This document shows, piece by piece, positions 20,068 to 35,580 of a stretch of DNA of 64,000 bases. The stretch is taken from positions 62,001 to 126,000 of the forward strand of contig NZ_VFYP01000007.1 of assembly GCF_006443685.1 (NCBI RefSeq), written 5' to 3'. The position numbers were made by a program, and so were the translations under genes. Every line of letters starts with the position of its first letter. Position 1 is the stretch's first letter. Below the pieces are notes generated by a model. It worked only from the letters and a program-made list of their open reading frames with translations. It made no database searches and was not told the DNA's origin. This stretch comes from Rhizobium glycinendophyticum (GTDB lineage: Bacteria; Pseudomonadota; Alphaproteobacteria; Rhizobiales; Rhizobiaceae).

Positions 20068-21303
<1,236 letters not shown>

Positions 21304-21308
21304 TCACA

Positions 21309-22307
21309 ATGGACGAAAACAGCGTTCCATTGCACAAATCGAACATGACAGAACGCAATATCGACATGGCCGGCAGCATTCCCACCTATCAGCTCTACGG
21401 AGAGCATGAGAATTCGTCGGCGCAGTTTCGGTTGCACTGCGAAACAATTCCGTCGAGAAGCAGCCTACATCACTGGGAAATCGGCCAGCATCGGCACGAG
21501 CACTTCTTTCAGATCCTGCTGATTACCGGCGGCTCCGGAGATGCAGTTTACGGCAGCGAGATTGTGCGCTTCGAACCTGTCTCGGTGCTGACAATACCGC
21601 CATCGATTGGTCATGGTTTCCGCTTCTCGGCCGATATCGATGGCTTCGTGTTCACCATCCTGACGAGCCGCCTGCCCATTCGCCCCGGGGAGCCAGGCTC
21701 TGTCGGCGCCTTCCTGTCACGACCGCGCGTAACAAGGCTTCCCGAGAACAGGGGGCAGGCAAGTCCTGTTCGCAGCGCCTTGGAGAGCGTTGTCGAAGAA
21801 TGGACAGCCCGTCGCAGTGGACGTTCGGTGTTGATGGAAAACGGCCTTGCAACGGCTCTTGTTCTCACCGCGCGCATCGCCGCCGAAGGGGCAGACGAAA
21901 CCGAGACGAGTGATGACAATGATCGTCGTTTGGACGCCTTGCTGGCGCTCCTGCATCGCGAGGTCCGCCAACATCGGCCGGCGTCTTACTATGCCAGGGC
22001 CCTTGGCATCTCGACGACGCATCTTGCCCGGATCGTGAAGGCAAAAACGGGACTGAGCACCCAAAACCTCATCGCTCAACGCCTTCTCGAAGAAGCGCAG
22101 CGCGAACTGCTGTTCACGCCAGATAGCGTGCAGGGGGTGGCCTACAGGCTCGGCTTTGCCGATCCCGCCTATTTCTCCCGTTTCTTTACGCGCCAGACAG
22201 GGCTGACACCTCGCACCTGGAAACAACGCGAGCAGGCGCGGCTTGCACAGGATGAGGGGCCCGGAATTTATATCGACAAAGGGAGCGCTCCTGTCAGCGG
22301 TGGCTGA
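21309..22307 (+). CDS. pobR: AraC-family regulator of pobA
   Basis: About 332 residues. The N-terminal part is a cupin-type sensor (HRHEHFFQILLITGGSG); the C-terminal 100 residues are an AraC double helix-turn-helix with YYARALGISTTHLARIVKAK and the second helix pair VAYRLGFADPAYFSRFFTRQ followed by TGLTPRTWK. The divergent position beside pobA is that of PobR, the 4-hydroxybenzoate-responsive activator. The ATG at 21309 has GAGGAG 12 bases upstream, which is rather far; later in-frame ATGs at 21345 and 21366 are possible. Its end overlaps the convergent sulfatase-like gene by 14 bases. Confidence 0.88.
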   Translation: MDENSVPLHKSNMTERNIDMAGSIPTYQLYGEHENSSAQFRLHCETIPSRSSLHHWEIGQHRHEHFFQILLITGGSGDAVYGSEIVRFEPVSVLTIPPSIGHGFRFSADIDGFVFTILTSRLPIRPGEPGSVGAFLSRPRVTRLPENRGQASPVRSALESVVEEWTARRSGRSVLMENGLATALVLTARIAAEGADETETSDDNDRRLDALLALLHREVRQHRPASYYARALGISTTHLARIVKAKTGLSTQNLIAQRLLEEAQRELLFTPDSVQGVAYRLGFADPAYFSRFFTRQTGLTPRTWKQREQARLAQDEGPGIYIDKGSAPVSGG

Positions 22308-23943
22308 AACGATCGATCAGCACCTGGCGCATATCGTCCATCCCCCATTCACGTGCCGTCGCCGAAGGCAGCATCCCTGGGGAAAACCCTTCTGCCTTAA
22401 AGCCCGCGATCAGATCGCCGTCGCCGCTCACAATATGGACCGGCACGGCACGCGAGGCATTCGGGCCGGTCACGATGGTAGCAGGCTGGTGGTCGCCGAG
22501 AATGATGAAGACCGTGTTCTTGCCAAACCGGCCCATGTAGCTGCCAAGCGTCTCCAAGGAATAATTGATCGTGGCAATATACTGGTGCCGCACGCGCTCG
22601 GGATCCGACCAGACGACCGAGGGGGAATCGCCCGCAACGGCCTGTTCATTGAACACCGAACCGTCTCCGACATCATCCCAGTCGATCAGATGCGCGACAG
22701 GGGTCCAGGGTGCATGGCTGGAAATCAGGGCAATTTCCGCCATCACAGGCTGAGCGCCTTCTCGCTTTGGCCCGCGCACCAGGCGCTCGAAGGCAGAAAG
22801 CGTGTACTGGTCCGGCATGGTGATCCAGTTGAACGGCTTGCCGCGATAGCCGAGCCCTGCTGCCGGCAGGATCTGGCTGTATCCATAATAATCCGCATCC
22901 GGCCAATCCATGGTGATTGCCGGCATTACGGCTGCCGTCTGCCAGCCGGCCTCGGCAAAAAGCCGGTTGAGGCTAGGCTGGGTGCTGCGCATCAGGCGGT
23001 CATAGCGTGCCTGGCTATCGACCCAGAGACCCGATAAAAGTGTGCCATGGGCAAGCCAGCTCAAGCCGCCGACTGTGGGCGAGGTTACCCATGCGCTTGC
23101 AGATTGAAGGCCGGCGGCCTTGAGCGTTTCGTCGACGGATTGCAGGCGTGGACGGGTGACTGGAGCGTAACGGGCATCTTCGATGGCACTTCGGCCATAG
23201 GATTCCACAAAGATAAGGACCACATCCTTGTCCGTGATCGCCTCGAAGAGGCCGCGCCCTGAACGTGGGCCCGGCCCGTTTGCCAAATCGGTCTCAAAAT
23301 GCCGCATGTCATCGATCGAGCGCACGACCAGTGACAGTCGTGCGGAAAGATAGCGCGCCATATCGAGTTCGATCCCGGGCAGGCCGAGGAGATAAAGCAG
23401 ACTGCCGAGCGTCGATAGAGCGACGAACGTGGCGATGAGGAGGAAGCGGGAAGATGCACGGGCGAGCGTCATCCAGCGCATGGATCGAAGGAAAAGCAGC
23501 ATCAGCAGAATAAGAGCCGCAACTGCAACCGATGCAGTCAGCACAGCCAGAGGCGGCCCAAATGTGCCGGACACGAGGTTCCAGCCATCTCCGATCATCT
23601 TGACGTCAAGATAAGGATTGAAGGGTCTCTGGAAGGCGGCCTGCGTGCCGATGTCCGCGATTTTCAGAAAGAGAATGACGAAGACCGTTACTGCCACCAT
23701 CAGAGCAAACAGACGGCGCAGATGTCCCTGGCTCAACAACAACAAGAGTGCGATGAGTGGCCATTCGAGCGGCAGTCTGGCAAAAGTCGAGATGGAGAAG
23801 GCGTCCGGATGGTCGGGAAGCGTGAAGGCCAGAAAAGCGATCAGACTGAAGAGCACCGTGCCGAGGATGACACGCCAACGCGGCTGCGCTAACCCGACGA
23901 TAGAGCGGGTCTCGTAAATGTTTCCGGGCATCCTATGTCTCAT
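22294..23943 (-). CDS. Membrane-anchored sulfatase-fold phosphoglycerol/phosphoethanolamine transferase-like protein
   Basis: 549 residues. The first 200 contain about five hydrophobic spans and the rest is a periplasmic alkaline-phosphatase-superfamily domain like LtaS/OpgB. The metal site is visible as VVLIFVESYGRSAIED, the nucleophile region probably in AWVTSPTVGGLSWLAHG, then the family's FIILGDHQPATIV near the C-terminus with Asp and His ligands. Such enzymes move a phosphoglycerol or phosphoethanolamine from a phospholipid to a sugar or lipid outside the inner membrane. It is divergent from the next membrane gene with 92 bases between them. The acceptor is unknown; the neighbourhood suggests a lipid or glycan of the following cluster. 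Confidence 0.82.
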   Translation of the reverse strand: MRHRMPGNIYETRSIVGLAQPRWRVILGTVLFSLIAFLAFTLPDHPDAFSISTFARLPLEWPLIALLLLLSQGHLRRLFALMVAVTVFVILFLKIADIGTQAAFQRPFNPYLDVKMIGDGWNLVSGTFGPPLAVLTASVAVAALILLMLLFLRSMRWMTLARASSRFLLIATFVALSTLGSLLYLLGLPGIELDMARYLSARLSLVVRSIDDMRHFETDLANGPGPRSGRGLFEAITDKDVVLIFVESYGRSAIEDARYAPVTRPRLQSVDETLKAAGLQSASAWVTSPTVGGLSWLAHGTLLSGLWVDSQARYDRLMRSTQPSLNRLFAEAGWQTAAVMPAITMDWPDADYYGYSQILPAAGLGYRGKPFNWITMPDQYTLSAFERLVRGPKREGAQPVMAEIALISSHAPWTPVAHLIDWDDVGDGSVFNEQAVAGDSPSVVWSDPERVRHQYIATINYSLETLGSYMGRFGKNTVFIILGDHQPATIVTGPNASRAVPVHIVSGDGDLIAGFKAEGFSPGMLPSATAREWGMDDMRQVLIDRFSHR

Positions 23944-24035
23944 GCAGTCCGATTCCTACTTGCCCCGTCCCCAGTCGTAATCGCCCCATCAAAGGGCTGA
24001 CGCGGCGTCTGCCAAGCCCGGAGATTTCTCGCGCT

Positions 24036-24962
24036 GTGTCGTCTCGTATCAGGATCCTGCCGCCGCTCCTCGTTGCCATACTCTTCGCCATACTGTTGTG
24101 GCGGACCGACATGCACGCCGTGCATGATGCATTCCTGCAGATTTCTTATGGCCCAGTGCTCACTGCCCTTGCCATCGTCCAGCTCCAGGTCATCCTGTCG
24201 GCAATCCGGTGGCGATTTACGGCGCAGAGGCTCGGCCAGACAATAGGGCTCGCTGAAGCTATCCGGGAATATTATGTCGCAAGCCTTCTCAACCAGAGCC
24301 TGCCGGGCGGCATGGGAGGCGATGCGATCAGAGCCTGGCGAACACGCGTTGAAGGCAAGGGTGGCTGGAAGCTTCCGGCAAAGGGCATTCTTTATGAACG
24401 TCTGTCGGGCCAGGCGGCCTTTCTCGTGATCGTGATCATCGGCCTGCCCCTCTGGCCGGTCCTGATCTCCGGTTCTGCGCCAATCTCGCTCGGCTGGGGA
24501 GCGGTCGCACTTTGCGCCATCGGTCTTGCGGCGGGCGCCGGGCTTTGGTGGCTTGCTCACCACTCGACCAACCCGATCCTGCGGCAGATCCGCCAAGACG
24601 CCTCCGAGGTCTTCCTGCGCCGGCAGGCCTGGCTTGTGCAATTGGGCCTGAGCGTGGTTGTGGTTGCGGCCTATATTGCGGTCTTCATGATCTCTTCCCA
24701 GGCGATTGGTGCCGGTCTGCCAATTCAGGCAGCACTCACGATCATTCCGCTTTGCCTCCTGTCCATGCTGATCCCCGTCGGGCTGGGAGGCTGGGGAACG
24801 CGCGAGGCAGCTGCCATGGCGCTCTGGCCGCTCACAGGCTTCACGGCGGCAGACGGGTTCGCGGCGAGCCTGCTTTATGGTTTTCTTTCGCTTGTGGGAT
24901 CGGCACCCGGCCTCGTCATCCTGGGGCTCGAAGCCATAGGCGCCCGTCGACGTCCAGGCTAA
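24036..24962 (+). CDS. LPG-synthase-type transmembrane protein (UPF0104/flippase-like)
   Basis: 308 residues and about eight hydrophobic spans. Two features mark the lysylphosphatidylglycerol-synthase transmembrane family: SLLNQSLPGGMGGDAIRAWR in the first third and LSMLIPVGLGGWGTREAA in the last. Members lacking the soluble transferase domain, as here, are thought to move lipids or lipid-linked sugars across the membrane. The start is GTG with a GGAG ahead. It converges on the CDP-alcohol phosphotransferase gene with only 8 bases between stops. Part of the unusual cluster at 22.3-31.6 kb. Confidence 0.82.
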   Translation: MSSRIRILPPLLVAILFAILLWRTDMHAVHDAFLQISYGPVLTALAIVQLQVILSAIRWRFTAQRLGQTIGLAEAIREYYVASLLNQSLPGGMGGDAIRAWRTRVEGKGGWKLPAKGILYERLSGQAAFLVIVIIGLPLWPVLISGSAPISLGWGAVALCAIGLAAGAGLWWLAHHSTNPILRQIRQDASEVFLRRQAWLVQLGLSVVVVAAYIAVFMISSQAIGAGLPIQAALTIIPLCLLSMLIPVGLGGWGTREAAAMALWPLTGFTAADGFAASLLYGFLSLVGSAPGLVILGLEAIGARRRPG

Positions 24963-24970
24963 ATCTCGCC

Positions 24971-25759
24971 TCACCGCGTGGCCAGGGGTTTGCGCAGCAG
25001 GTAACGGAGGTCGACGGCAAAGGAATATGTAAGGAGGGCGAGCGCAGCAAAGGCTATCACCGTCGAGACCGGCGGAATAACGAAGGGCGCCAGCAACAGG
25101 CAAAGTGCCGAGATCTGTACAACACAGACAAGCTTTCGTCGGAAGGACGGGAATAGCTCGCCCTCCAGCCGCGGATCCACCCACGACGCAAGAACGAACG
25201 CATAGCGCATGAGGCCAATCAGCATGACCCATAGGCCGGCCTTGTCGAGAAGCGCTGCAGCGGAGGAAAGAACGAGAATCATCAGCGCATCGACTTCCAT
25301 GTCGAAACGCGCGCCGAAAGCTGACTCCTGATCAAACCGTCTGGCGAGATAGCCGTCGACGCCATCCAGCGCCAGCGTGAGGAGAACGATACCGATCATG
25401 ACGAGCAGGACGGGTTTTTCATGGACGAGACCCTCGAAGCAGAAGAGGGCAGCGCCTATCAGGCTCACAAGGCACGCCCGAAATGCGGTCACCAGATTTG
25501 CATAGCCGAACCGGTCGAAGGGGTGGTCGGACAGTGCACCCAGACACAAGCCAAAGATCAAAGCCGCCCCTGAGACCGAGAAGAGAACAAACTCCCAACC
25601 GAGTTCGGGGCGAAGGCTGAGGCAGAGACCGGCAAGAGCAGTCGCGGCAAGAAGAAGGGAGAAATCGAAAACGGTATCGCGCAGCAGATTATCGGGAACC
25701 GATAACCGCTCCACCCAATTTTGCCGCCACTCCCCCAGCCTGTCCGGCCCGCTCGCCAT
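24971..25759 (-). CDS. CDP-alcohol phosphatidyltransferase
   Basis: 262 residues and six to seven hydrophobic spans. The full signature DG-x2-AR-x8-G-x3-D-x3-D is present in DGYLARRFDQESAFG continuing to ARFDMEVD. These enzymes displace CMP from a CDP-activated alcohol onto another alcohol at the inner membrane. Proteins of this sub-branch are not the standard PgsA or PssA, so the substrate is open. AGGAG lies 7 bases before the ATG. It is followed in the other direction by the GTP cyclohydrolase II-like gene with 30 bases between, both minus strand, so these two are probably one transcript. Confidence 0.85.
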   Translation of the reverse strand: MASGPDRLGEWRQNWVERLSVPDNLLRDTVFDFSLLLAATALAGLCLSLRPELGWEFVLFSVSGAALIFGLCLGALSDHPFDRFGYANLVTAFRACLVSLIGAALFCFEGLVHEKPVLLVMIGIVLLTLALDGVDGYLARRFDQESAFGARFDMEVDALMILVLSSAAALLDKAGLWVMLIGLMRYAFVLASWVDPRLEGELFPSFRRKLVCVVQISALCLLLAPFVIPPVSTVIAFAALALLTYSFAVDLRYLLRKPLATR

Positions 25760-25789
25760 GTCCGTGCTCCTGCCTGACCGTTGCGCCAA

Positions 25790-26896
25790 TTACTCAGCTG
25801 CAACCAGACTTGCGAGATCCATCATGTGGCCGGCCCGCAACGTCTTCGTGCGCAGATAGTTCTCGTTTTCGGCCGTCACACGACCTGTAACAGCGGCGCG
25901 TGCCTCCACCTCGATCCCGCCCAGGCGCAGACCCTCGATCTTCGTCGGGTTGTTGGTATAGACGGCGACCCGGCCAATATTCAGATGCTGCAACATGGCG
26001 ACTGCGGCCTCATAACGACGATGATCATCGCGAAGACCGAGTTCCGCATCCGCGTCAATCGTGTCAAGGCCCAGATGCTGGTAGCCATAGGCGCGCATCT
26101 TGGCACCGATGCCCGTGCCACGTCCTTCCTGGTCGAGATAAAGCAGAACACCCCCGCCGGCATGCTTCAGCAGCGACAGGCCGTTGCGAAGCTGGTCACC
26201 GCAATCGCACTTCAGTGAACCGCAGAGATCCCCGGTGATGCATGAGGAGTGGATCCGGATCGGCACGGTCTTCGTCACGTCCGGCTTTCCAACGACAATG
26301 GCAACCTGGTCCTTTTGGGCAAGGCCACCCCGGAATACGACGAAATCGGCATCGCCCAGATCCTTCAAGGGCACTCTCGTCCGTACCACCTGATCGAAAC
26401 GCTGCCGCGCGACATCGGCACCCTTGAGGCCAGCGGATGAAAGCGTGCAGCAACCGGCAAACAGGTCTGCTGCATCGGAGACATCTGCAACCACCATGGC
26501 CGGCAAGAGCAGGGCAAGGCGCGCCAGTTCGGCCGAGAGAGACGCGAGATCGTCGGCTGCCTGCCAGGACCGCGGCGCCTCGGCGCCGAGCGAATAGGCG
26601 AGACGCGACGCCTGATCGAACGATACGCCCGTGAGAGGCGAAAGAACGTCACCGGTTGCGCGCAGCCCGAGCCTTGATGCGCGGGGCGCTGTCAGGAGCA
26701 GCGAGTGACGCGCGTCCGTGGCGGCAGCAAACTGGTCGTAGACGGAGGGGGCCACGCAATCCAAAGCGAGCGTGGCGAGCGTTCGGCTCCCCTCGGTCAA
26801 AAGCACGGGGCGTCCGTACCGCAGCTCAGATACGGCCCGTTCTACCGCGATTTCGGGCGTAGAGAACTGGAAGACGGCCTGGCTGGACTTCGACAT
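25790..26896 (-). CDS. GTP cyclohydrolase II domain protein with atypical N-terminal half
   Basis: 368 residues. The C-terminal ~200 residues match GTP cyclohydrolase II, which opens GTP to 2,5-diamino-6-ribosylamino-pyrimidinone 5'-phosphate. The zinc cysteines are C219, C230 and C232 (HSSCITGD, then SLKCDCGDQL), followed by LDQEGRGTGI, GLDTIDADAELG, the Arg in DDHRRYEAAV and the TNNPTKIEGL end. Residues 1-170 occupy the place of the DHBP synthase domain of RibBA, but I see none of its acidic metal-binding motifs, so this half is likely not active as RibB. It belongs to the pterin-like cluster rather than to a riboflavin operon. AAGGAGAG stands before the ATG. Confidence 0.85.
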   Translation of the reverse strand: MSKSSQAVFQFSTPEIAVERAVSELRYGRPVLLTEGSRTLATLALDCVAPSVYDQFAAATDARHSLLLTAPRASRLGLRATGDVLSPLTGVSFDQASRLAYSLGAEAPRSWQAADDLASLSAELARLALLLPAMVVADVSDAADLFAGCCTLSSAGLKGADVARQRFDQVVRTRVPLKDLGDADFVVFRGGLAQKDQVAIVVGKPDVTKTVPIRIHSSCITGDLCGSLKCDCGDQLRNGLSLLKHAGGGVLLYLDQEGRGTGIGAKMRAYGYQHLGLDTIDADAELGLRDDHRRYEAAVAMLQHLNIGRVAVYTNNPTKIEGLRLGGIEVEARAAVTGRVTAENENYLRTKTLRAGHMMDLASLVAAE

Positions 26897-26916
26897 GATG
26901 TTACTCTCCTTGAGAC

Positions 26917-26963
26917 GGTGGTTCCACTACGCCGCGCCGCCGCCGGCGGATTGCGGAACCGCC
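26917..26963 (-). promoter_or_regulatory. Stable hairpin in the 5' leader of the GTP cyclohydrolase gene
   Basis: Nine-base arms GGTGGTTCC (26917-26925) and GGAACCGCC (26955-26963) pair fully with one G-U pair, enclosing a CCGCC/GGCGG-type inner stem. It lies between an AT-rich promoter-like stretch (26964-26985) and the ribosome binding site, some 20 bases before the start codon. A role in controlling translation is possible. The conserved FMN riboswitch core is not visible. Confidence 0.4.
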
Positions 26964-27058
26964 ATAAAATAATATTGAACATCCTCAAGGAACCAAATGC
27001 GTGTTGAGATCATACGTTCCTCGTCCGTGGAACATAAATGGGCATTGAGGGGATTGAA

Positions 27059-28066
27059 GTGAAGAGCCACAGTGATGAACAGAGCGTCTCGCTAAGCCTC
27101 GAGGCGAAGGCCCTATGGATAGAAGCTGCAGGTCAGTGTGATATGCGCCGGGAGGTGCTGAAGCTGCCCGGCCCCGATGAGGTTCTGGTCCGCACGCTCT
27201 ACAGCGGTATCAGTCGCGGCACGGAATCGTTGATATTCGAGGGACGCGTGCCACCAAGTGAATACGAGCGCATGCGTGGACCGGGCATGGAGGGGGATTT
27301 CCCCTTTCCCGTGAAATACGGCTATGCTGCCGTGGGCGTGGTCGAGCAAGGGCCGCCAGAGCTTCTGGAACGCGAGGTCTTCTGCCTCCATCCGCATCAG
27401 GATTTCTTCGTTGTGCCGGCCGGACGCGTCACGATGCTGCCGCTCTCGCTCCCGCCGCGTCGCGCCATTCTCGCCGCCAATATGGAAACTGCTCTCAATG
27501 TTGTCTGGGATGCAGCCATTCAGCCGGGCGACCGTGTCGCCGTCTTCGGTGCAGGGGTTGTTGGGACATTGATCGCCTATCTCTCCTCAAGGATTGCCGG
27601 AACGGATACGATCCTGATCGACCGGGAGCCGCGCAGAGCTTCGCTCGCCGCTTCCCTCGGCCTTCACTTTACAACGCCCGAGGACATTGGCGAAGTCGCA
27701 GACTTGGACGTGGTCATCAATGCCACGGCATCACCACAGGCGCTCGCCGCAGCGATAGAGCTTGCAGGCCTTGAAGCCCGGATCGTCGAGGCAAGCTGGT
27801 ATGGCGATCGGTCCGTCGCGCTGCCGCTCGGCGGCGCCTTTCACGCGAGGCGTCTGTCGCTGGTCAGCTCGCAGGTTGGCAATCTGCCTGTATCCCACCG
27901 CGCGCGCTGGACCTTTGCGCGGCGCATTGCCAAGGCCCTCGATCTTCTTCTCGATGTCAGGCTCGACAGCCTGATCTCCGGCGAAACCCCCTTTGCTGAA
28001 CTGCCCGCCGCCTACGCACGTATCCTGTCGCGACCGGATACGCTGTGCCATCGCATTCGTTACTGA
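27059..28066 (+). CDS. Medium-chain dehydrogenase/reductase (BchC-like, probably zinc-free)
   Basis: About 335 residues of the medium-chain alcohol dehydrogenase superfamily. The Rossmann motif is VFGAGVVGTLIAYLSS around residue 163, followed by an acidic residue in LIDREP suggesting NAD. At the usual catalytic zinc cysteine the sequence reads YSGISRGTES, with Ser instead of Cys, and no structural four-cysteine loop is visible, so it looks zinc-independent. A GTG start was chosen because GAGGGG lies 6 bases upstream; an ATG 21 bases earlier is the alternative. It is the first of four plus-strand genes (dehydrogenase, PTPS-like, glycosyltransferase, methyltransferase) with tight spacing. Confidence 0.78.
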   Translation: MKSHSDEQSVSLSLEAKALWIEAAGQCDMRREVLKLPGPDEVLVRTLYSGISRGTESLIFEGRVPPSEYERMRGPGMEGDFPFPVKYGYAAVGVVEQGPPELLEREVFCLHPHQDFFVVPAGRVTMLPLSLPPRRAILAANMETALNVVWDAAIQPGDRVAVFGAGVVGTLIAYLSSRIAGTDTILIDREPRRASLAASLGLHFTTPEDIGEVADLDVVINATASPQALAAAIELAGLEARIVEASWYGDRSVALPLGGAFHARRLSLVSSQVGNLPVSHRARWTFARRIAKALDLLLDVRLDSLISGETPFAELPAAYARILSRPDTLCHRIRY

Positions 28067-28078
28067 GAAAGAGAGTCC

Positions 28079-28477
28079 ATGTTCGCTGTTGAAGTTCGAG
28101 ACCACATTATGATCGCCCACAGCCTGCCGCGCCCGGTCTTCGGGCCAGCGCAAGGTATGCATGGCGCAACCTTCGTCGTGGATGCAGCCTTCTTTACGAA
28201 GGACGTCGACGAGGACGGACTGGCCGTCGATATCGGGGCAGCAACCACGGTGCTGTCCGAAGTTTTGAAGCCGCTCAACTACCAGAACCTTGATGAGGTT
28301 GACGTCTTCAAGGGCAAGGTCAGCACGACCGAGGTGATTGCCAAGCACATCTTCGATGAACTCGCGGCCGCTGTCGCAGCCAAGCGCTTGGGCCCCGGAA
28401 GTGGTCGCATCTGCCATCTCAAGGTGACACTGCATGAATCCCATGCAGCGCGCGGATGGTACGAGGCAGATCTTTGA
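28079..28477 (+). CDS. 6-Pyruvoyl-tetrahydropterin synthase/QueD-fold protein lacking the catalytic residues
   Basis: 132 residues, the size of QueD/PTPS. The fold is clear: FAVEVRDHIMIAHSLPRP, GMHGATFVV, GLAVDIGAAT, STTEVIAKHIFDEL and the final VTLHES with the ligand-binding Glu. However, residues needed for the known reactions are missing. The catalytic Cys before the HGH motif is absent (GPAQGM), the second His of HGH is Ala30, and the catalytic Asp-His pair (usually LDHxxL) reads LNYQNL at 66-71. Only H14 and H28 remain of the three zinc ligands. It may catalyse another reaction or bind a pterin-like product. Tightly spaced between the dehydrogenase and glycosyltransferase genes. Confidence 0.82.
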   Translation: MFAVEVRDHIMIAHSLPRPVFGPAQGMHGATFVVDAAFFTKDVDEDGLAVDIGAATTVLSEVLKPLNYQNLDEVDVFKGKVSTTEVIAKHIFDELAAAVAAKRLGPGSGRICHLKVTLHESHAARGWYEADL

Positions 28478-29517
28478 GCCTCGACATCACCTTCGCCTAT
28501 CCTGGTGATCTCGCACTCAAGACCGGCGGTTATGGTTACGACCGCAAGCTGATCGAGGGTCTTGAGGCGCTTGGCTGGAAGGTCGAGCTTCTTTCGCTCG
28601 GCGACGGCTTTCCGTCACCATCGCCCGAGGTTCTCAAAGAGGCCGAGCGCAGTCTGTCTGCTCTGCCTGATGACGCTCTGTTGCTGATCGATGGGCTGGC
28701 CTTCGGCGTGCTCGACGCCTGGGCCAGCCGTGAGGCTTCACGCCTTCGGCTGGCCATCCTCGTCCATCACCCGCTGGCGCTCGAGACCGGTCTTTCACAG
28801 GAAGAGCGCCTCATCTTCACCGAGAGAGAGAGGCGCGCTCTGTCCCATGCCGCGCAGATCTTCGTAACATCTGCGATGACGGCACGCGAACTCGTGGCCG
28901 GCTATGATGTTGACCCTCAGAGGCTGACGATTGCCCTACCGGGGACCGATCGCCTGGGGCTGGCGCCGCGAAGGGGGGATCCGCCGATGATCCTCTCGGT
29001 CGGAACGCTCACCCGCCGCAAGGGCCATGACGTGCTCGTGCGTGCGCTCAAACAGATCGAAAGCCTGCCCTGGCAGGCCTGTATCGTCGGGGCGGGTACA
29101 CTCGACCCACGAACTGCCGATGCGCTCGAAAACCTGATTTTGTCTGAGGGGCTTTCCAACAGGATCAAGCTTGCAGGCGAGGTCGAAGACACTCGTTTGG
29201 AAATGCTCAACGCCGATATATTTGCTCTGGCCAGCCGTTATGAAGGTTACGGAATGGTCTTTGCGGAAGCTCTGTCGCATGGCCTGCCCATCGTCGGCTG
29301 CGCCACCGGCGCCGTACCGGATGTCGTGCCTGAAGAGGCGGGCATTCTGGTTCCCGTCGACGATGTAGACGCTTTCACCGATGCGCTACGCCGGCTCTTG
29401 GCCGATCCACACCTGCGGGACGAAAAGGCGCAAGGATCGGCGTTGGCCGGAGAGCAACTTCCGACCTGGGCCCACACGGCCGCCATCTTCTCCAGCCGAT
29501 TGCAGGACCTGACATGA
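28474..29517 (+). CDS. Glycosyltransferase family 4 protein
   Basis: About 347 residues, retaining GT-B glycosyltransferase. The donor domain shows LSVGTLTRRKGHDVLVRAL, the middle AGEVEDTRLEMLNADIFALA, and the EX7E motif in RYEGYGMVFAEALSHG with its two glutamates, followed by GAVPDVVPEEAGILVP. The acceptor side begins AYPGDLALKTGGYGYDRKLI. The likely start is a TTG overlapping the stop of the preceding gene (TTGA) with GAGG upstream; an ATG 18 bases earlier has no ribosome binding site. Sugar donor and acceptor cannot be read, but position suggests that it decorates the product of the pterin-like cluster. Confidence 0.85.
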   Translation: MSLDITFAYPGDLALKTGGYGYDRKLIEGLEALGWKVELLSLGDGFPSPSPEVLKEAERSLSALPDDALLLIDGLAFGVLDAWASREASRLRLAILVHHPLALETGLSQEERLIFTERERRALSHAAQIFVTSAMTARELVAGYDVDPQRLTIALPGTDRLGLAPRRGDPPMILSVGTLTRRKGHDVLVRALKQIESLPWQACIVGAGTLDPRTADALENLILSEGLSNRIKLAGEVEDTRLEMLNADIFALASRYEGYGMVFAEALSHGLPIVGCATGAVPDVVPEEAGILVPVDDVDAFTDALRRLLADPHLRDEKAQGSALAGEQLPTWAHTAAIFSSRLQDLT

Positions 29518-30314
29518 GTGGTTTCGATAAAAATTGGCTGGCGCTGCGTGAACCGGCAGATCGCCTCGCCCGGTCCCGCCCGTTGATCGGTACGCTCTGT
29601 CGCCATCTGGCAGAGGCCCGGCAAGCGCCCTTACTGCTCGATATCGGCTGTGGGACGGGCTCGACCTATAGAACCCTTTCACCGCTTCTCCCGGCGCAAA
29701 CACGCTGGCTTTTGTTGGATTATGATCCGCAACTGCTGCTGGAAGCGGAAAGGCAGATCACGTCTTCCGACGGGATCTCCTTCCGCCAACATGACCTCAA
29801 CGACCTTGCTGATCTGCCCCTCGACGGGGTCTCCATGGTCACGGCCTCGGCGCTTTTCGATCTGTGCTCGGCGTCGTTCACCGACCGTTTTGTCGAACGC
29901 CTTTCCTACCAAAAGACGGGCCTCTACGCCGCGCTGAACTATGACGGCGTCATGGAATGGGGCACGAGCCATCCGCTCGACACGCAGGTCGTCGATAGCT
30001 TCAATCGCCACCAGGGTTTGGACAAGGGGTTTGGGCCGGCGCTCGGACCGAACGCCACGCACCATCTCGGCCAGTCGCTGAGATCTAAGGGATACAGGGT
30101 CGAGATCGGGCACAGCCCCTGGCGCCTTGGCCCCAATCAGCATGCACTGCAGGCGGAACTTCTGCGTGGCATCCAAGCCGCTGTCGCAGAAATCGGGGCT
30201 ATCGCTCCTGCCGAACTCGAAGACTGGGTCGCTTACCGCCTTGATGTGCTTGCGGACGAGCAGAGCCTATGCGTGATCGGCCACGCGGATCTTCTCGCCA
30301 TCCACGATCGATGA
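29514..30314 (+). CDS. Class I SAM-dependent methyltransferase
   Basis: 266 residues. The SAM-binding motif I is LLDIGCGTGSTYRTLSPLLP near residue 43, and motif II ends in LLLDYDPQLLLEAER. The C-terminal part has no recognised substrate motif. The ATG overlaps the glycosyltransferase stop by 4 bases (ATGA), so the two are translationally coupled. Its last 48 bases overlap the convergent RibD-like gene. Within this cluster it may N- or O-methylate the GTP-derived ring, which is inference. Confidence 0.83.
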   Translation: MSGFDKNWLALREPADRLARSRPLIGTLCRHLAEARQAPLLLDIGCGTGSTYRTLSPLLPAQTRWLLLDYDPQLLLEAERQITSSDGISFRQHDLNDLADLPLDGVSMVTASALFDLCSASFTDRFVERLSYQKTGLYAALNYDGVMEWGTSHPLDTQVVDSFNRHQGLDKGFGPALGPNATHHLGQSLRSKGYRVEIGHSPWRLGPNQHALQAELLRGIQAAVAEIGAIAPAELEDWVAYRLDVLADEQSLCVIGHADLLAIHDR

Positions 30315-31079
30315 CGCGACAGATGCCTGCAATTCGCAGTCGAAGAGAATGTCGCTGCCGAGACTGTAGATCTTGGCAGGCGGGCGATGGGCGCTGGTCA
30401 GATTTTCAATCGGCGGCAAGCTGATGCCGGCCGGCCCAGAGCCGATGATCAGGGGGGCGATCGCCACATGCAGCCGGTCGACCAGACCGGCATCGATGAA
30501 ACGGGCGATCGTGCGCGCGCCACCTTCGACCAGAATTCGCTGGAGACCCCTCTCTCTGAGCCGCGCCAATATCTCCTGAGGATCAAGCCCAGTTTGGCCC
30601 TGGCTTACGCGCAGGACCTCCGCGCGGTATCGTTTGTGGGGTACACGTTCGCTCTGGATCAACAGAATGGGAGCGCCGCCATCGCCAAACATACATTCGT
30701 TGCCGCTGAGTTCACCGCGGCAATCGATGACCACGCGGACAGGATTGGGACCCTTCACCGCGCGCACAGAGAGCCGGGGATTATCGGCCTTGACCGTGCC
30801 GATACCAACGATCACGGCTTCCACCAGCGCTCGGCAACGATGCAGGTGAGCGATCCCGTCAGGTCCCGAGATATCACGCGCGTCACCGCTTGGGGTCGCA
30901 ACGCGTCCATCGAGAGACTGTCCAACTTGCGCCAGAACGAAGCCCGCGCGTGCTGAGGCGATGGGGCCATAAAGAGCGAGCGCCGGATCCGTCTCTTCTC
31001 CAGGTCCAGCGCGATGCCGACCACCCCGCATGGCGAGAAGCCTTGCCCAGAGCTGGTCGTTCATCTCGATCTTGCGCAT
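30267..31079 (-). CDS. RibD C-terminal (reductase) domain protein
   Basis: About 270 residues. Only the reductase domain of RibD is present, as in yeast Rib7: FVLAQVGQSLDGRVATPSGD, AVIVGIGTVKADNPRLSVR, then the NADPH-site ILVEGGARTIARFIDAGLVDRL with IIGSGPAGI. The deaminase domain is missing. Such enzymes reduce the ribosyl side chain of the product of GTP cyclohydrolase II, so it matches the cyclohydrolase in the same cluster. Two starts are possible (31079 and 31064), both with weak ribosome binding sites. The cytochrome b561 gene lies 17 bases upstream on the same strand. Confidence 0.85.
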   Translation of the reverse strand: MRKIEMNDQLWARLLAMRGGRHRAGPGEETDPALALYGPIASARAGFVLAQVGQSLDGRVATPSGDARDISGPDGIAHLHRCRALVEAVIVGIGTVKADNPRLSVRAVKGPNPVRVVIDCRGELSGNECMFGDGGAPILLIQSERVPHKRYRAEVLRVSQGQTGLDPQEILARLRERGLQRILVEGGARTIARFIDAGLVDRLHVAIAPLIIGSGPAGISLPPIENLTSAHRPPAKIYSLGSDILFDCELQASVASSIVDGEKIRVADHA

Positions 31080-31096
31080 CAGGCGTGGCCCCGGCT

Positions 31097-31633
31097 TCAG
31101 AGGATACGGTAAAGGGTTTCGTCGCGGCGCACGACATGGTGAAACAATGCGGCGCCAATATGCAACGCAACCAACGTCAAAAGGATCCAGGCGCTCCACT
31201 CGTGGATGGAGGAAAGTGTCCAGGCAATATCGGGCGACTTGCCGATCGGGCTCCAGATCGTCACGAGGCCGAACCATTTCAGCGGGAAGCCATGGGCGTT
31301 TGTGGCGAGGAAGCCGGAGACCGGCATCAGCACCAGAAAGAGATAGAGCAGACCATGGACGCTGCCTGCAGCCAATCTCTCGATCGGGGGTGCGGGGCGC
31401 GAAGGAGCGGGTTTCGTCAATCGAAAGCCGACACGAAGCAGCATGATCCAGAGCACCAGAAATCCGAGGCTTTCATGCACGAGATAGAAGTCGAGCTTCA
31501 CCTCGTCTTTGGCGAACCCTATCATCAGGCCGAGGGGCCAGGTTAGAAAGACCAGAGCGGCAACAATCCAGTGCAGGATCCTGAGGGCCGGCCGGTAGCG
31601 CCCGCTGCTTTCCGCGTTATCGATAAGCTCCAT
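31097..31633 (-). CDS. Cytochrome b561-type membrane protein
   Basis: 178 residues with four hydrophobic spans and histidines placed to bind two haems: ALRILHWIVAALVFLTW, FYLVHESLGFLVLWIM, AAGSVHGLLYLFLVLMPVSG and SSIHEWSAWILLTLVALHIGAALFHHVV. It would pass electrons from the quinone pool to a periplasmic acceptor or the reverse. Immediately upstream of the RibD-like gene, so it may serve the same pathway as a redox component. The ATG chosen follows GGAG and removes a 58-residue upstream stretch with no family similarity. The 268 bases before it, up to the type I secretion genes, show no gene. Confidence 0.85.
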   Translation of the reverse strand: MELIDNAESSGRYRPALRILHWIVAALVFLTWPLGLMIGFAKDEVKLDFYLVHESLGFLVLWIMLLRVGFRLTKPAPSRPAPPIERLAAGSVHGLLYLFLVLMPVSGFLATNAHGFPLKWFGLVTIWSPIGKSPDIAWTLSSIHEWSAWILLTLVALHIGAALFHHVVRRDETLYRIL

Positions 31634-31901: not shown

Positions 31902-33194
31902 TCAGCGCTCCGTCAGAGCGGCAGAACGCGCCTTGTTGATGGGTTTCATCAGATAACTCAAAACCGTTTTTCTGCCTGTCAAGATATCGACAGACGCAAC
32001 CATCCCCGGAATAATGGGATAGGAGACGCCGTCCTTGACCAGGGATGACTGATCAGTCTTGACCTGAACCAGGTAAAAGGTTTCTCCATTTTCCTTCTCC
32101 ACCAGGCTGTCGGCCGATATGTTGGTGACTTGTCCCTCAAGCCCGCCGAACACCGAGAAGTCGTAAGCCGTGACTTTCACGACAGCTTTTTGCCCTCGCT
32201 GGATGAAGGCGATATCGCGGGGGGAAATCCGGGCTTCAACGAGAAGCGTATCGGCCGTTGGCACAATTGCGGCTATGACAGATCCCGGATCGACATAGGC
32301 TCCGATCGTATTGACCTCGAGCGTATTGACGATGCCATCCACCGGTGAGCGGATATCGGTCCTTTCGACCCGGTCTGAGGCCCCTCGAATAGTCTCATCA
32401 ATCACTGATAGCTCGGCTAGAACTTGGGCTTTTTCTGTCACTGCTTGCTGTTGCAATTCTATCGGGAGCTCCTCGACCTGAAGCCGCGCTTCATCCACGG
32501 CGCCGCGCAGGCGATCAAGGCTTGCGGTATAAACCTCCACCTGTCCCCTTTGCTCCGAAAGCTCGCGCTCCACGGTGATGGACTGCATATGGGCCATCAA
32601 GCCCTTGTCTGCCAAAGAATTCATCAGGGCAAACTGCCGGCTCGACACCTCGATGTTCTGCCTCAGGCGCGCGATGTTGACCTGCGCCTCCTTGAGCTCG
32701 TTTTCTCGCTGTAAAAGCCGTTCCTGCAGCACGCGGAGCTTGTTTTTAAATCTGGCCTTGTTGGCTGCAAAGAGGTTCTCCTCATTGGCGCAAACCTTGG
32801 CCGCAACGGCCCTGACATCCTGCGGGCAGACGAATGCAGCGTCGTAGTCGCCAGCTTCCTCAAGCGCTAGACGGGCAACCTTTGCGCCAAGTGCGCGAGC
32901 CTTGGCGCGCGCCTCGCCTAATGACGATTCGGTCGTGATGTTGTTCAACTGGACAATGAGTTCCCCCTTCCGAACGATCTGACCAAGCTGCACGGCGATC
33001 GTCTGGACAATCCCGGCCTCAGACGACTGCACGATCTGTGTCTTCGAGACGGGAATGACCTTACCTTCTCCTCTTGCAAGTTCGTCGATCTGGGTAAATG
33101 CCGCCCAGGCGAGGAAGCTCATGAGCAAGAGTACCACGAGCCACAAAAGCATGCGGGCAATGAAGGGAGGTCTATCGACTATGGCTCGGTTCAT
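31902..33194 (-). CDS. Type I secretion periplasmic adaptor (HlyD family)
   Basis: 430 residues. A single membrane span lies at about residues 14-32 (LLWLVVLLLMSFLAWAAF), then the lipoyl/barrel part EGKVIPVSKTQIVQSSEAG, a long coiled-coil from about residue 130 to 270, and the second lipoyl half TDIRSPVDGIVNTLEVNT. It bridges the inner-membrane ABC exporter and an outer-membrane TolC-type channel. Its ATG overlaps the exporter's stop (ATGA). No TolC-like gene is present in the window. It resembles LapC-type adaptors. Confidence 0.92.
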   Translation of the reverse strand: MNRAIVDRPPFIARMLLWLVVLLLMSFLAWAAFTQIDELARGEGKVIPVSKTQIVQSSEAGIVQTIAVQLGQIVRKGELIVQLNNITTESSLGEARAKARALGAKVARLALEEAGDYDAAFVCPQDVRAVAAKVCANEENLFAANKARFKNKLRVLQERLLQRENELKEAQVNIARLRQNIEVSSRQFALMNSLADKGLMAHMQSITVERELSEQRGQVEVYTASLDRLRGAVDEARLQVEELPIELQQQAVTEKAQVLAELSVIDETIRGASDRVERTDIRSPVDGIVNTLEVNTIGAYVDPGSVIAAIVPTADTLLVEARISPRDIAFIQRGQKAVVKVTAYDFSVFGGLEGQVTNISADSLVEKENGETFYLVQVKTDQSSLVKDGVSYPIIPGMVASVDILTGRKTVLSYLMKPINKARSAALTER

Positions 33195-35371
33195 AGCCGC
33201 GCCATCGCTTTCTGCTGCAAATTCTCCAGCACATTCGCCTTTGGTCCGTCGGCGACCACCTTGCCCTGGTCGATGACGACGAGGCGATCGACAAGTTCAA
33301 GCATGCTCATTCGGTGCGTGGCAAGTATCACCGTCGTCTGAGCCTCGAACGTCGCTGAAAGCCGACTGATCAGGTTACGTTCACTTGCAAGATCCATGGC
33401 ACCCGATGGCTCGTCCAGGAATACGATCTTGGGCTTCGTCAACAGCAGGCGCGCAATTGCCAATGCCTGTTTCTGGCCGCCGGAGAGATTATTGCCTCGC
33501 TCTCCGACGGGCATGTCAAAACCACGCGGATGACGGGCCACGAATTCCTCGACACCGGTGATGCGGGCAACTTCGAGAAGTTCTTCGTCGGTTGCGTCAG
33601 CCCGACCTATCATCAGGTTCTCCTTCACCGTTCCTGAGAAAAGATCGGAGGATTGACCAGCAACACTGACTGCAGAGCGGACTTCAGAGACATGGTATTG
33701 TCTGATGTCAACACCATCAATGAGAATACGGCCTTCGGTTGGGATGAAAAGACCGTCCAACAGGCGCCCAACTGTCGTCTTTCCCGAGCCGATCCTTCCA
33801 ATGATGCCAACCTTTTCACCAGCTGTTACATTGAGGTTGAATTCGCGAAGAACGGGATAGTCGGTTCCGGGATAGCTAAAGGACACGTTCTGAAAGGCAA
33901 ACCTGCCTTTCGTGATTCTGCGATTGACGAAGCCCACATTGGACGGTCGGTCTTCAGGCTGCTCCATTACCTTGTTCAATATTCGAAGTGACAAGGTCGC
34001 CTGGCGAAGGCGCGCAAGCGTCATTGCGATTTGACCAAGCGGCGCACCAGCCCGGCCAGCGAGCATGACTGTGGCAACGATCGCACCCATCGCAAGCTTA
34101 CCCTCGGAAAACTCGTAGGTGCCAGCGATGATGATCAAAACGCCGACGACCTGCTGGATGAAAGTGGTCAGGTTCATCGCAGTGCTGGAGATGTGCTTGA
34201 TCGCTTCCTGCGTTCGGCTCGACTGCTTCATCAGTTCTTGCCAGCGGCGCAGCATAGTGGCTTCCGCACTCAAGCTTTTGACCGTTTCGATGGTGGAAAT
34301 CGTCTCCACCAGAAGCGACTGACGTTTGGAAGCTTCATTGTTGGCAGTTGCCATTCGACTGCCGATCTGCGCCTGAGCACGCAGGCCAACGGCGACCGTC
34401 AGCACTAGAGCCACTGCCGGGATGACCGCAAGCCAACCTGAAATGAAATAGATGGCGATGAGGAAGATGAAGACGAATGCCGTATCAACGACAAGACCTA
34501 TGGTGTTTGAGGTGAAGAACTCTCGAACGAATTCATACTGCATCACGCGGCTTGCGTATTCACCGGTCGACAAGGGTCGCGACGACAGGCTGGTGTTCAA
34601 CACCTTGTCGAAAATCATCTGAGACAGCTTGAGGTCCGCTTTTCGACCTGCATGGTCAATCAAGGCGGCCCTGGCGGTCTTCAAGAGGAAGTCGAACAGG
34701 TAAGCGATGAGGATCCCGAGCGACAGGACCCAGAGCGTCGGGATGGCCCGATTGGGCAGCACCCGGTCATAGACATTCATCGTAAACAGCGGCGAGCCGA
34801 GTGCGATCAAATTGATGAACAGGGCGGCGATGATGACCTGGGTGTAGCTGCGCCAATATGGCGCCAGCGTACGAACCAGCCAGTTCCCGCGCTCGATCTC
34901 ACTTCCCGCCCCGACCTGCGCTTCATCGCCATCGTTCTTGTAAAACAGTGTGAATACAAAGGCAGACTGGACATCGAGTGAACGCAGCTGGCCGAGGCTG
35001 AGCTTCTGTCTCAACGAGCCGCCATCCTTGTCGTCGACCAGGTAATCGCCGGCTTCGGTCGCCTCCAGAAGCGGCACAGTGCCGCCGTCCTTCAAAACCA
35101 CGATCGCTGGACAGTCGAAGTCTCCGGCGCGAACAGCCCGTGCATCCACTGCAACGACCTGAAGACCGATGCGCTCGCCGACATGTTCGACATCATCAAG
35201 CTCCAGCGACTCGACGATTTCGTCGGGAAGTCCAGAGAAAAGAACGGTATCGGAAGTCGGACGACCATAATAGCGGGCCACGGCCGCCAGGGACAGTTTG
35301 AACCTTCGCGAAACTGCATTCGAAGCAGCATTGTCAGGGCTGTCTGCCATCTTGATCGATTGACCGAACAT
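33191..35371 (-). CDS. Type I secretion ABC exporter (LapB/HlyB-like)
   Basis: About 726 residues. The N-terminal 130 residues are a C39-peptidase-like domain without the catalytic cysteine (SLAAVARYYGRPTSDTVL), as in HlyB and LapB, used to hold the substrate rather than cleave it. About six membrane spans follow, then the ATPase: Walker A IGRIGSGKTTVGRLLDG, signature LSGGQKQALAIARLL, Walker B KIVFLDEPSGAMD and the ATHR switch. It exports proteins with C-terminal RTX-type signals. ATG at 35371 was chosen; MADSP at 35347 is possible and neither has a good ribosome binding site. The cognate secreted protein is not nearby. Confidence 0.92.
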   Translation of the reverse strand: MFGQSIKMADSPDNAASNAVSRRFKLSLAAVARYYGRPTSDTVLFSGLPDEIVESLELDDVEHVGERIGLQVVAVDARAVRAGDFDCPAIVVLKDGGTVPLLEATEAGDYLVDDKDGGSLRQKLSLGQLRSLDVQSAFVFTLFYKNDGDEAQVGAGSEIERGNWLVRTLAPYWRSYTQVIIAALFINLIALGSPLFTMNVYDRVLPNRAIPTLWVLSLGILIAYLFDFLLKTARAALIDHAGRKADLKLSQMIFDKVLNTSLSSRPLSTGEYASRVMQYEFVREFFTSNTIGLVVDTAFVFIFLIAIYFISGWLAVIPAVALVLTVAVGLRAQAQIGSRMATANNEASKRQSLLVETISTIETVKSLSAEATMLRRWQELMKQSSRTQEAIKHISSTAMNLTTFIQQVVGVLIIIAGTYEFSEGKLAMGAIVATVMLAGRAGAPLGQIAMTLARLRQATLSLRILNKVMEQPEDRPSNVGFVNRRITKGRFAFQNVSFSYPGTDYPVLREFNLNVTAGEKVGIIGRIGSGKTTVGRLLDGLFIPTEGRILIDGVDIRQYHVSEVRSAVSVAGQSSDLFSGTVKENLMIGRADATDEELLEVARITGVEEFVARHPRGFDMPVGERGNNLSGGQKQALAIARLLLTKPKIVFLDEPSGAMDLASERNLISRLSATFEAQTTVILATHRMSMLELVDRLVVIDQGKVVADGPKANVLENLQQKAMARL

Positions 35372-35580
35372 CAAAGAGAGGTCACGGCCAAAAGGCCGAT
35401 CTACTGATCAACACTTTGACGCGAGAGGGATGAAAAAAGCATGAGCAGCTGTCATGCTGACGCGATTTTTCAGCATCCGGATCAAAGCCGCAGCTCTCTC
35501 GTGGCCAGCGAGCCTGGCATCGGCACCCAGGCGCTTCAGATTTGGCGCGGCCCGAAGCTTTAACTACAGACGCGACCTGT

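Follow-up and report, generated by a model that had tools for sequence, protein, structure and literature searches.

The gene neighbourhood of PTPS-IV proteins, a subfamily of COG0720, has previously been reported by AGeNNT to contain PF00925 and RibD_C genes (PMC5445326). In the present study, we analysed a ten-gene cluster of Rhizobium glycinendophyticum, located at positions 22294-31633 of a 64-kb stretch of contig NZ_VFYP01000007.1 (hereafter the window), whose PTPS protein carries the same FGPAQ signature and is likewise accompanied by PF00925 and RibD_C (PF01872) proteins. The earlier description labels PF00925 as GTP cyclohydrolase I/FolE2, whereas the cluster protein is a GTP cyclohydrolase II (GCHII); furthermore, the passages of that paper on PTPS-IV name no glycosyltransferase, methyltransferase, dehydrogenase, CDP-alcohol phosphotransferase (CDP-OH-P), LPG-synthase-type (LPG) or sulfatase-fold partner, and no product (PMC5445326). 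The signature genes are common, yet no description or product of the whole ten-family set was found in the open-access literature.

Several single proteins of the cluster resemble known enzymes. SCO6650 of Streptomyces coelicolor (3d7j, E 3.9e-35), which has presumably lost the zinc site and the catalytic triad, is the closest solved relative of the cluster PTPS, and in comparison with the SCO6650/SCO6655 system the GCHII of the actinomycete loci collected here is a single-domain protein, often accompanied by a creatininase-family gene. QueD (6-carboxytetrahydropterin synthase) has the PTPS fold in common with the cluster protein, which lacks the CxxxHGH motif. Archaeal-type reductases (6p8c) of 2,5-diamino-6-ribosylamino-4(3H)-pyrimidinone 5'-phosphate (DARPP), which serve riboflavin synthesis, are likewise RibD_C proteins without a deaminase, whereas the cluster gene accompanies PTPS-IV instead. 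The structure model of the sulfatase-fold protein resembles LtaS/GacH, and the phosphoglycerol transferases LtaS, LtaP and GacH have the same fold with metal- and nucleophile-type residues, at just 12-16% sequence identity to the cluster protein.

On balance, we favour the view that the ten genes form one horizontally mobile biosynthetic system, which would start from GTP and proceed through five steps including a probable attachment to lipid. The initial annotation had described the locus as a ten-gene pathway to a glycosylated, methylated, possibly lipid-linked pterin-like compound. All ten families were borne out by Pfam/NCBIfam profile matches, with the LPG-synthase-type gene corrected to the plus strand; the GCHII/RibD chemistry, glycosylation and methylation hold as enzyme classes, whereas the pterin and the lipid link are putative only.

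Recurrence of the gene set

For comparison, we used 80 named loci (the best 80 of 162 candidates) and 13 class-sampled loci (all matching genomes besides the window's), both found with the dehydrogenase (DH), together with 21 actinomycete and 16 phylum-sampled loci, the latter being all 16 additional genomes from further Pseudomonadota, found with the PTPS profile. The presence of DH or PTPS in the respective sets is by construction, because these proteins were the search bait. Of 142 genomes sampled from the window's class, 14 had the dehydrogenase (the window's own among them, and one lacking the cluster), as did 36 of 60 from its genus. PTPS was present in 37 of 246 genomes from the class to which a Micrococcales genome belongs; the actinomycete set covers 21 of these 37, and L077 (G201) was counted among the named loci. 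The counts exclude the small automatic loci L001-L016 and L110-L114, L089 duplicates L140 (129 distinct dehydrogenases among 130 loci), and one side is cut short in 19 of the 80 named loci.

Counted per locus with profile hidden Markov models (HMMs), the families in the named loci were DH and PTPS (80 each), GT4 glycosyltransferase (79), methyltransferase (MT, 72), RibD_C (63), CDP-OH-P (60), sulfatase-fold (52), cytochrome b561 (49), GCHII (47) and LPG (42), and all ten occurred together in 27. At least four of the five core genes (DH, PTPS, GT4, MT, RibD_C) were found in 76/80 named, 11/13 class-sampled, 20/21 actinomycete and 16/16 phylum-sampled loci. At least one membrane gene (CDP-OH-P, LPG or sulfatase-fold) was seen in 61/80 named and 20/21 actinomycete loci. 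The DH gene immediately precedes PTPS on the same strand in 126 of the 129 loci with both. Gene order varies widely between loci, yet the set remains clustered. Other arrangements of it were found on plasmids and in Actinomycetes, Gammaproteobacteria, Gemmatimonadota and Fidelibacterota, where those of the latter two come from metagenome-assembled genomes (MAGs). As a control, 20 stretches of 20 kb were taken at fixed positions of 16 cluster-bearing genomes: 18 contained none of the families and two contained one each (28 and 84 bits), never more. The rest of the window gave no match to the cluster-family HMMs. The ten genes look like one real pathway, and chance grouping is unlikely because the set recurs together in distant bacteria while the controls hold at most one family. 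The co-occurrence that had been proposed as a check was thus found, the core genes standing together on plasmids as well as across phyla, and both halves of the cluster, soluble and membrane, doing so in many such loci.

One-frame fusions were also seen, joining GT4 to MT in four loci (L146, L147, L149 and L150, of which the latter three share a genus), CDP-OH-P to the sulfatase-fold protein in three (L126, L128, L132) and CDP-OH-P to FkbM in one (L109). In the mirror-tree analysis all 45 gene pairs were strongly correlated (0.80-0.96); these values are given no weight, because common ancestry alone could produce them.

Among 20 plasmid matches, nine were examined, of which seven had the cluster or its core and two a solo PTPS. 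Cassettes spanning both halves are carried by plasmids of Rhizobium sp. SL42, Thiodictyon (flanked by transposase genes), Streptomyces fungicidicus and Microbacterium (a 59-kb mobilizable plasmid). The cassettes of Palleronia (adjoining repABC), Methylosinus and Rhodobacteraceae SC52 have no CDP-OH-P, LPG or sulfatase-fold gene within the stretch read. A PfkB/ribokinase-type kinase, possibly an extra step or ribose salvage, adjoins the cluster on two Rhodobacterales plasmids (L161 10997-11887; L162 6834-7754). The two lone PTPS-IV genes do not belong to a cluster and have genes for a sigma factor and a BTAD regulator close by. In the dehydrogenase tree (56 rows, no bootstrap; 22 of 53 forks weak), Coralloluteibacterium stands next to Aurantimonas (93) and two Micrococcales MAGs next to Paracoccaceae (95). 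These placements suggest transfer, though binning error may contribute.

Enzymes of the cluster and the proposed pathway

The entry chemistry is the best-supported part of the pathway. When aligned to E. coli GCHII 2bz0, the cluster protein retains the cysteines (HSSC...CDCG) and the tyrosine (KMRAY) that we take to be the three zinc ligands and the catalytic residue; its N-terminal ~165 residues have no Pfam match. The acidic motif DDxxRExEGD, presumably catalytic in RibB, is absent from this protein and present in the second genomic copy, so the test for RibBA was negative. There were 78 GCHII-bearing loci (window included), 76 of them readable at the Tyr position. The Tyr was found in 57/57 readable GCHII of loci without a creatininase-family gene, whereas in the 19 loci with such a gene it was replaced in 14 (11 Met, 2 His, 1 Leu) and kept in five. 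In Actinomycetes, the creatininase-family gene was present in 14/14 loci with Tyr-less GCHII versus 0/4 with Tyr (Fisher p 3e-4, relatedness not corrected for). The Met-form paralogue SCO6655 of S. coelicolor is said to halt at the formamide (Spoonamore and Bandarian). A creatininase-family formamidase that removes the formyl group to give DARPP has a published precedent (PMC9478397). The trade-off points to DARPP as the compound that the pathway requires.

The nearest solved relative of the RibD_C protein is 6p8c, named DARPP reductase, and the second match is 2azn, by its deposited name a putative 5-amino-6-(5-phosphoribosylamino)uracil reductase; the Pfam/NCBIfam search detected RibD_C only and no deaminase domain. 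For PTPS, an alignment of 92 sequences (window and 91 of L017-L109) was positive for the PTPS-IV signature FGPAQ...HGAT, with FGPA in 92/92 and Q in 90/92. The tests for PTPS-I/QueD and for PTPS-II/PTPS-III were negative: HGA replaces HGH in 92/92, Ala stands at the Cys position of CxxxHGH in 92/92, and Gly and Gln/Arg occupy the Cys and Glu positions of the latter types. The score against the QueD model was 34.6 bits (cut-off 89.25). In public (NCBI) annotation (L156-L164), PTPS-IV goes by the name 6-carboxytetrahydropterin synthase, to which a queuosine term is added in most cases; this QueD-type annotation is not supported, because the motif test was negative.

The dehydrogenase has SRGTE...KYGY at the positions where, as we take it, the zinc Cys and His-Glu ligands of MDR enzymes normally sit. 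It has no Cys at this site; in an alignment of 131 sequences, two columns elsewhere hold Cys in 77 and 111 of them, and the test for a zinc-dependent MDR alcohol dehydrogenase was negative. Both Glu of the E-x7-E motif are conserved in GT4 (126 sequences), and DxGxGxG in the methyltransferase (114 sequences). An accessory FkbM methyltransferase was found in 42/80 named loci and not in the window, and an inositol-monophosphatase-like gene in 5/80.

In the membrane half, the CDP-OH-P motif DxxDGxxAR(x)8GxxxDxxxD is invariant in 22/22 sequences, and the structure model resembles PgsA. The sulfatase-fold protein gave no PDB match by sequence search; its model was positive in the LtaS-type test for fold and metal ligands, whose mapping to LtaS is our assumption. 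The protein is predicted to be a phospho-group transferase or hydrolase of LtaS/GacH/EptA-like type.

From these enzyme classes we propose the following pathway. GCHII would most likely make DARPP from GTP, and where the GCHII of a lineage goes no further than the formamide, the creatininase-family formamidase would complete the reaction. The RibD_C reductase would then probably convert the ribosyl into a ribityl chain, with no deamination beforehand. PTPS-IV, in which the classical zinc/catalytic motif is lost and a strongly conserved site is kept, may remodel the pyrimidine together with the zinc-less dehydrogenase; the substrates are tentative, and in the most plausible form the ribityl side chain would be oxidised and a pterin-like ring closed on it. 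GT4 and the methyltransferase would probably act one after the other on the remodelled compound. Finally, on substrates that are again tentative, the PgsA-like CDP-OH-P enzyme may build a phosphodiester head group, to be transferred or trimmed by the LtaS-like extracytoplasmic enzyme, with the LPG_synthase_TM protein as a possible membrane partner and, in Pseudomonadota, cytochrome b561 as a possible connection to the quinone pool.

The ring of the product could remain a diaminopyrimidine rather than a pterin, and its probable attachment to lipid is only putatively covalent. A more specific idea, which we regard as doubtful, is a membrane-anchored redox cofactor of a new class, spread between phyla by plasmids, namely a glycosylated and methylated pteridine that GCHII, RibD_C and PTPS-IV would derive from GTP, borne by a phospholipid-type head group on the membrane's outer face and wired to the quinone pool through b561. 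Should the lipid link hold, the product would, to our knowledge, represent a kind of cofactor or envelope lipid without precedent. The tight family set, the fusions and the GCHII/creatininase trade-off make the pathway testable gene by gene.

Alternative roles of the cluster

Several findings speak against a single system starting from GTP. The fusions connect steps inside each half and none bridges both. At least one membrane gene was found in just 6/13 class-sampled and 7/16 phylum-sampled loci; short contigs account for at most 10 (nine named, one class-sampled) of the 36 loci without any. GCHII is absent from 33/80 named loci, eight of these short, RibD_C was found in 7/21 actinomycete loci only, L104 carries the dehydrogenase alone, and lone PTPS-IV copies occur on two Streptomyces plasmids (L156, L164). 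Five loci, none among the sampled Actinomycetes, combine a Tyr-GCHII with creatininase, for which reason the trade-off is not strict, and L106 has creatininase with no GCHII. The RibD_C protein scored 114 with TIGR00326 (bacterial deaminase-reductase) and 109 with TIGR01508 (archaeal DARPP reductase), both below cut-off, and the NCBIfam models do not clearly separate the two reductase types. A replacement of GCHII by GTP cyclohydrolase I was rejected for the four GCHII-less loci checked (L034, L040, L053, L054), which have no gene-sized gap between CDP-OH-P and DH.

The strongest alternative, possible but in our opinion rather unlikely, is that of two partner modules often inherited together, in which GCHII, RibD_C, PTPS, DH, GT4 and MT make a soluble glycosylated, methylated pterin and a separate modification of lipid head groups leaves this pterin untouched. 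This alternative would account for the membrane genes being absent in 7/13 class-sampled and 9/16 phylum-sampled loci (a short contig in just one of the 16) and from the Palleronia and Methylosinus plasmid cassettes, and for fusions staying within either half. However, membrane genes occur in nearly all actinomycete loci and on plasmid cassettes, and the set stays together under rearranged gene orders.

A supply of riboflavin precursor, with cluster GCHII and RibD_C replacing the GCHII activity lost from the RibBA of the genus, is improbable. The idea draws on the two reciprocal PF00925 genes of the genome. The other copy is a RibBA with an intact RibB motif and no Cys in its GCHII half, and this leaves the cluster GCHII as the sole zinc-type enzyme of its kind found there. 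In the housekeeping RibBA of the genus (C1:980914-981363, L002; L191-L216), the zinc Cys of the GCHII half is missing in every copy read, and the RibB motif is intact in all except one partial copy. On the other hand, 24 of 60 genus genomes lack the cluster dehydrogenase, and 21 of them have only Cys-less PF00925 copies (the second copy of G170 unread); one of the others (G156) has a zinc-type GCHII and two (G148, G190) have no PF00925 match. Completeness was 66% and 88% for G145 and G170. Since these members mostly show only Cys-less copies, riboflavin is presumably made without the cluster GCHII, the genus presumably obtaining the precursor from another, undiscovered cyclohydrolase. Such an enzyme, together with the formamidase BrbF, is proposed in the relevant passages of PMC9478397, and the window's genome has two creatininase-family genes. 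Riboflavin supply would, moreover, leave the other eight genes unexplained. The initial annotation had argued against riboflavin from missing ribE and ribH, an argument which fails because RibH is encoded elsewhere in the genome (C1:1519076), as are two further RibD_C genes (C1:1517501, C1:493718); ribE was not searched.

Still less probable is an azapteridine or pyrazolotriazine antibiotic of toxoflavin or pseudoiodinine type. The GCHII, RibD and methyltransferase classes are in common. The likeness to toxoflavin is loose, however: no deaminase domain was found in the cluster RibD protein, which is a reductase, the conserved core here is PTPS-IV, dehydrogenase and GT4, and conservation across phyla would be atypical of an antibiotic cluster. 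A branch of F420 (deazaflavin) synthesis, suggested by the FGPAQ signature and by an archaeal F420 role of PTPS-IV given as unpublished work in the passage concerned (PMC5041015), is the least credible, as no CofH or CofD match was found in the window's genome (99.65% complete). Both F420 and riboflavin synthesis are thus disfavoured as the role of the cluster, and F420 is contradicted for the window's organism; the single GTP-derived system is retained as the preferred reading.

Layout of the locus

Features of the ten-gene cluster, with positions in the window and the profile matches obtained
Feature	Position	Strand	Basis
Sulfatase-fold membrane protein, N-terminal membrane helices (predicted LtaS/GacH/EptA-like phospho-group transferase or hydrolase)	22294..23943	-	Pfam Sulfatase 23.9 bits, cut-off 25; confident structure model
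LPG_synthase_TM family membrane protein (putatively flippase/transferase-like)	24036..24962	+	PF03706 124.8 bits
CDP-alcohol phosphotransferase, PgsA-like fold, extra N-terminal helices	24971..25789	-	CDP-OH-P transferase 61.7 bits
GTP cyclohydrolase II (GCHII)	25790..26896	-	Pfam 154.8 bits; NCBIfam NF006456 469.3 bits, cut-off 464
MDR-type dehydrogenase (DH), BchC-like	27038..28066	+	Sub-cut-off matches only, best TIGR01202 71 bits (cut-off 291)
PTPS-fold protein, subtype IV	28079..28477	+	PF01242 74.1 bits
GT4 glycosyltransferase	28456..29517	+	PF13692 107.6 bits
Class I SAM methyltransferase (MT)	29514..30314	+	PF13649 34.3 bits
RibD_C reductase without deaminase domain, start set at internal ATG 31079	30267..31079	-	PF01872 143.7 bits
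Cytochrome b561 family membrane protein, start set at internal ATG	31097..31633	-	PF01292 106.5 bits

The genes are arranged in short divergent units, namely GCHII-CDP-OH-P (-), DH-PTPS-GT4-MT (+), b561-RibD_C (-), LPG (+) and sulfatase-fold (-), and those of the DH-PTPS-GT4-MT unit are overlapping or nearly so. The LPG-synthase-type gene sits between the minus-strand sulfatase-fold and CDP-OH-P genes; a minus-strand reading frame (23940-25232) first taken for it has no Pfam match and was replaced. Rfam and tRNA scans of the window gave no matches. On the right, the cluster is flanked by HlyD and ABC exporter genes of type I secretion (31902-35374), and on the left by an AraC-type regulator and an FAD-binding monooxygenase (20068-21273). 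HlyD was seen in 14 sources, which are the window and close relatives, and because the flanking genes are conserved in close relatives only, the ten genes stand out as a unit. At the position of the FAD monooxygenase, Rhizobium sp. SL42 has a gene annotated as pobA.

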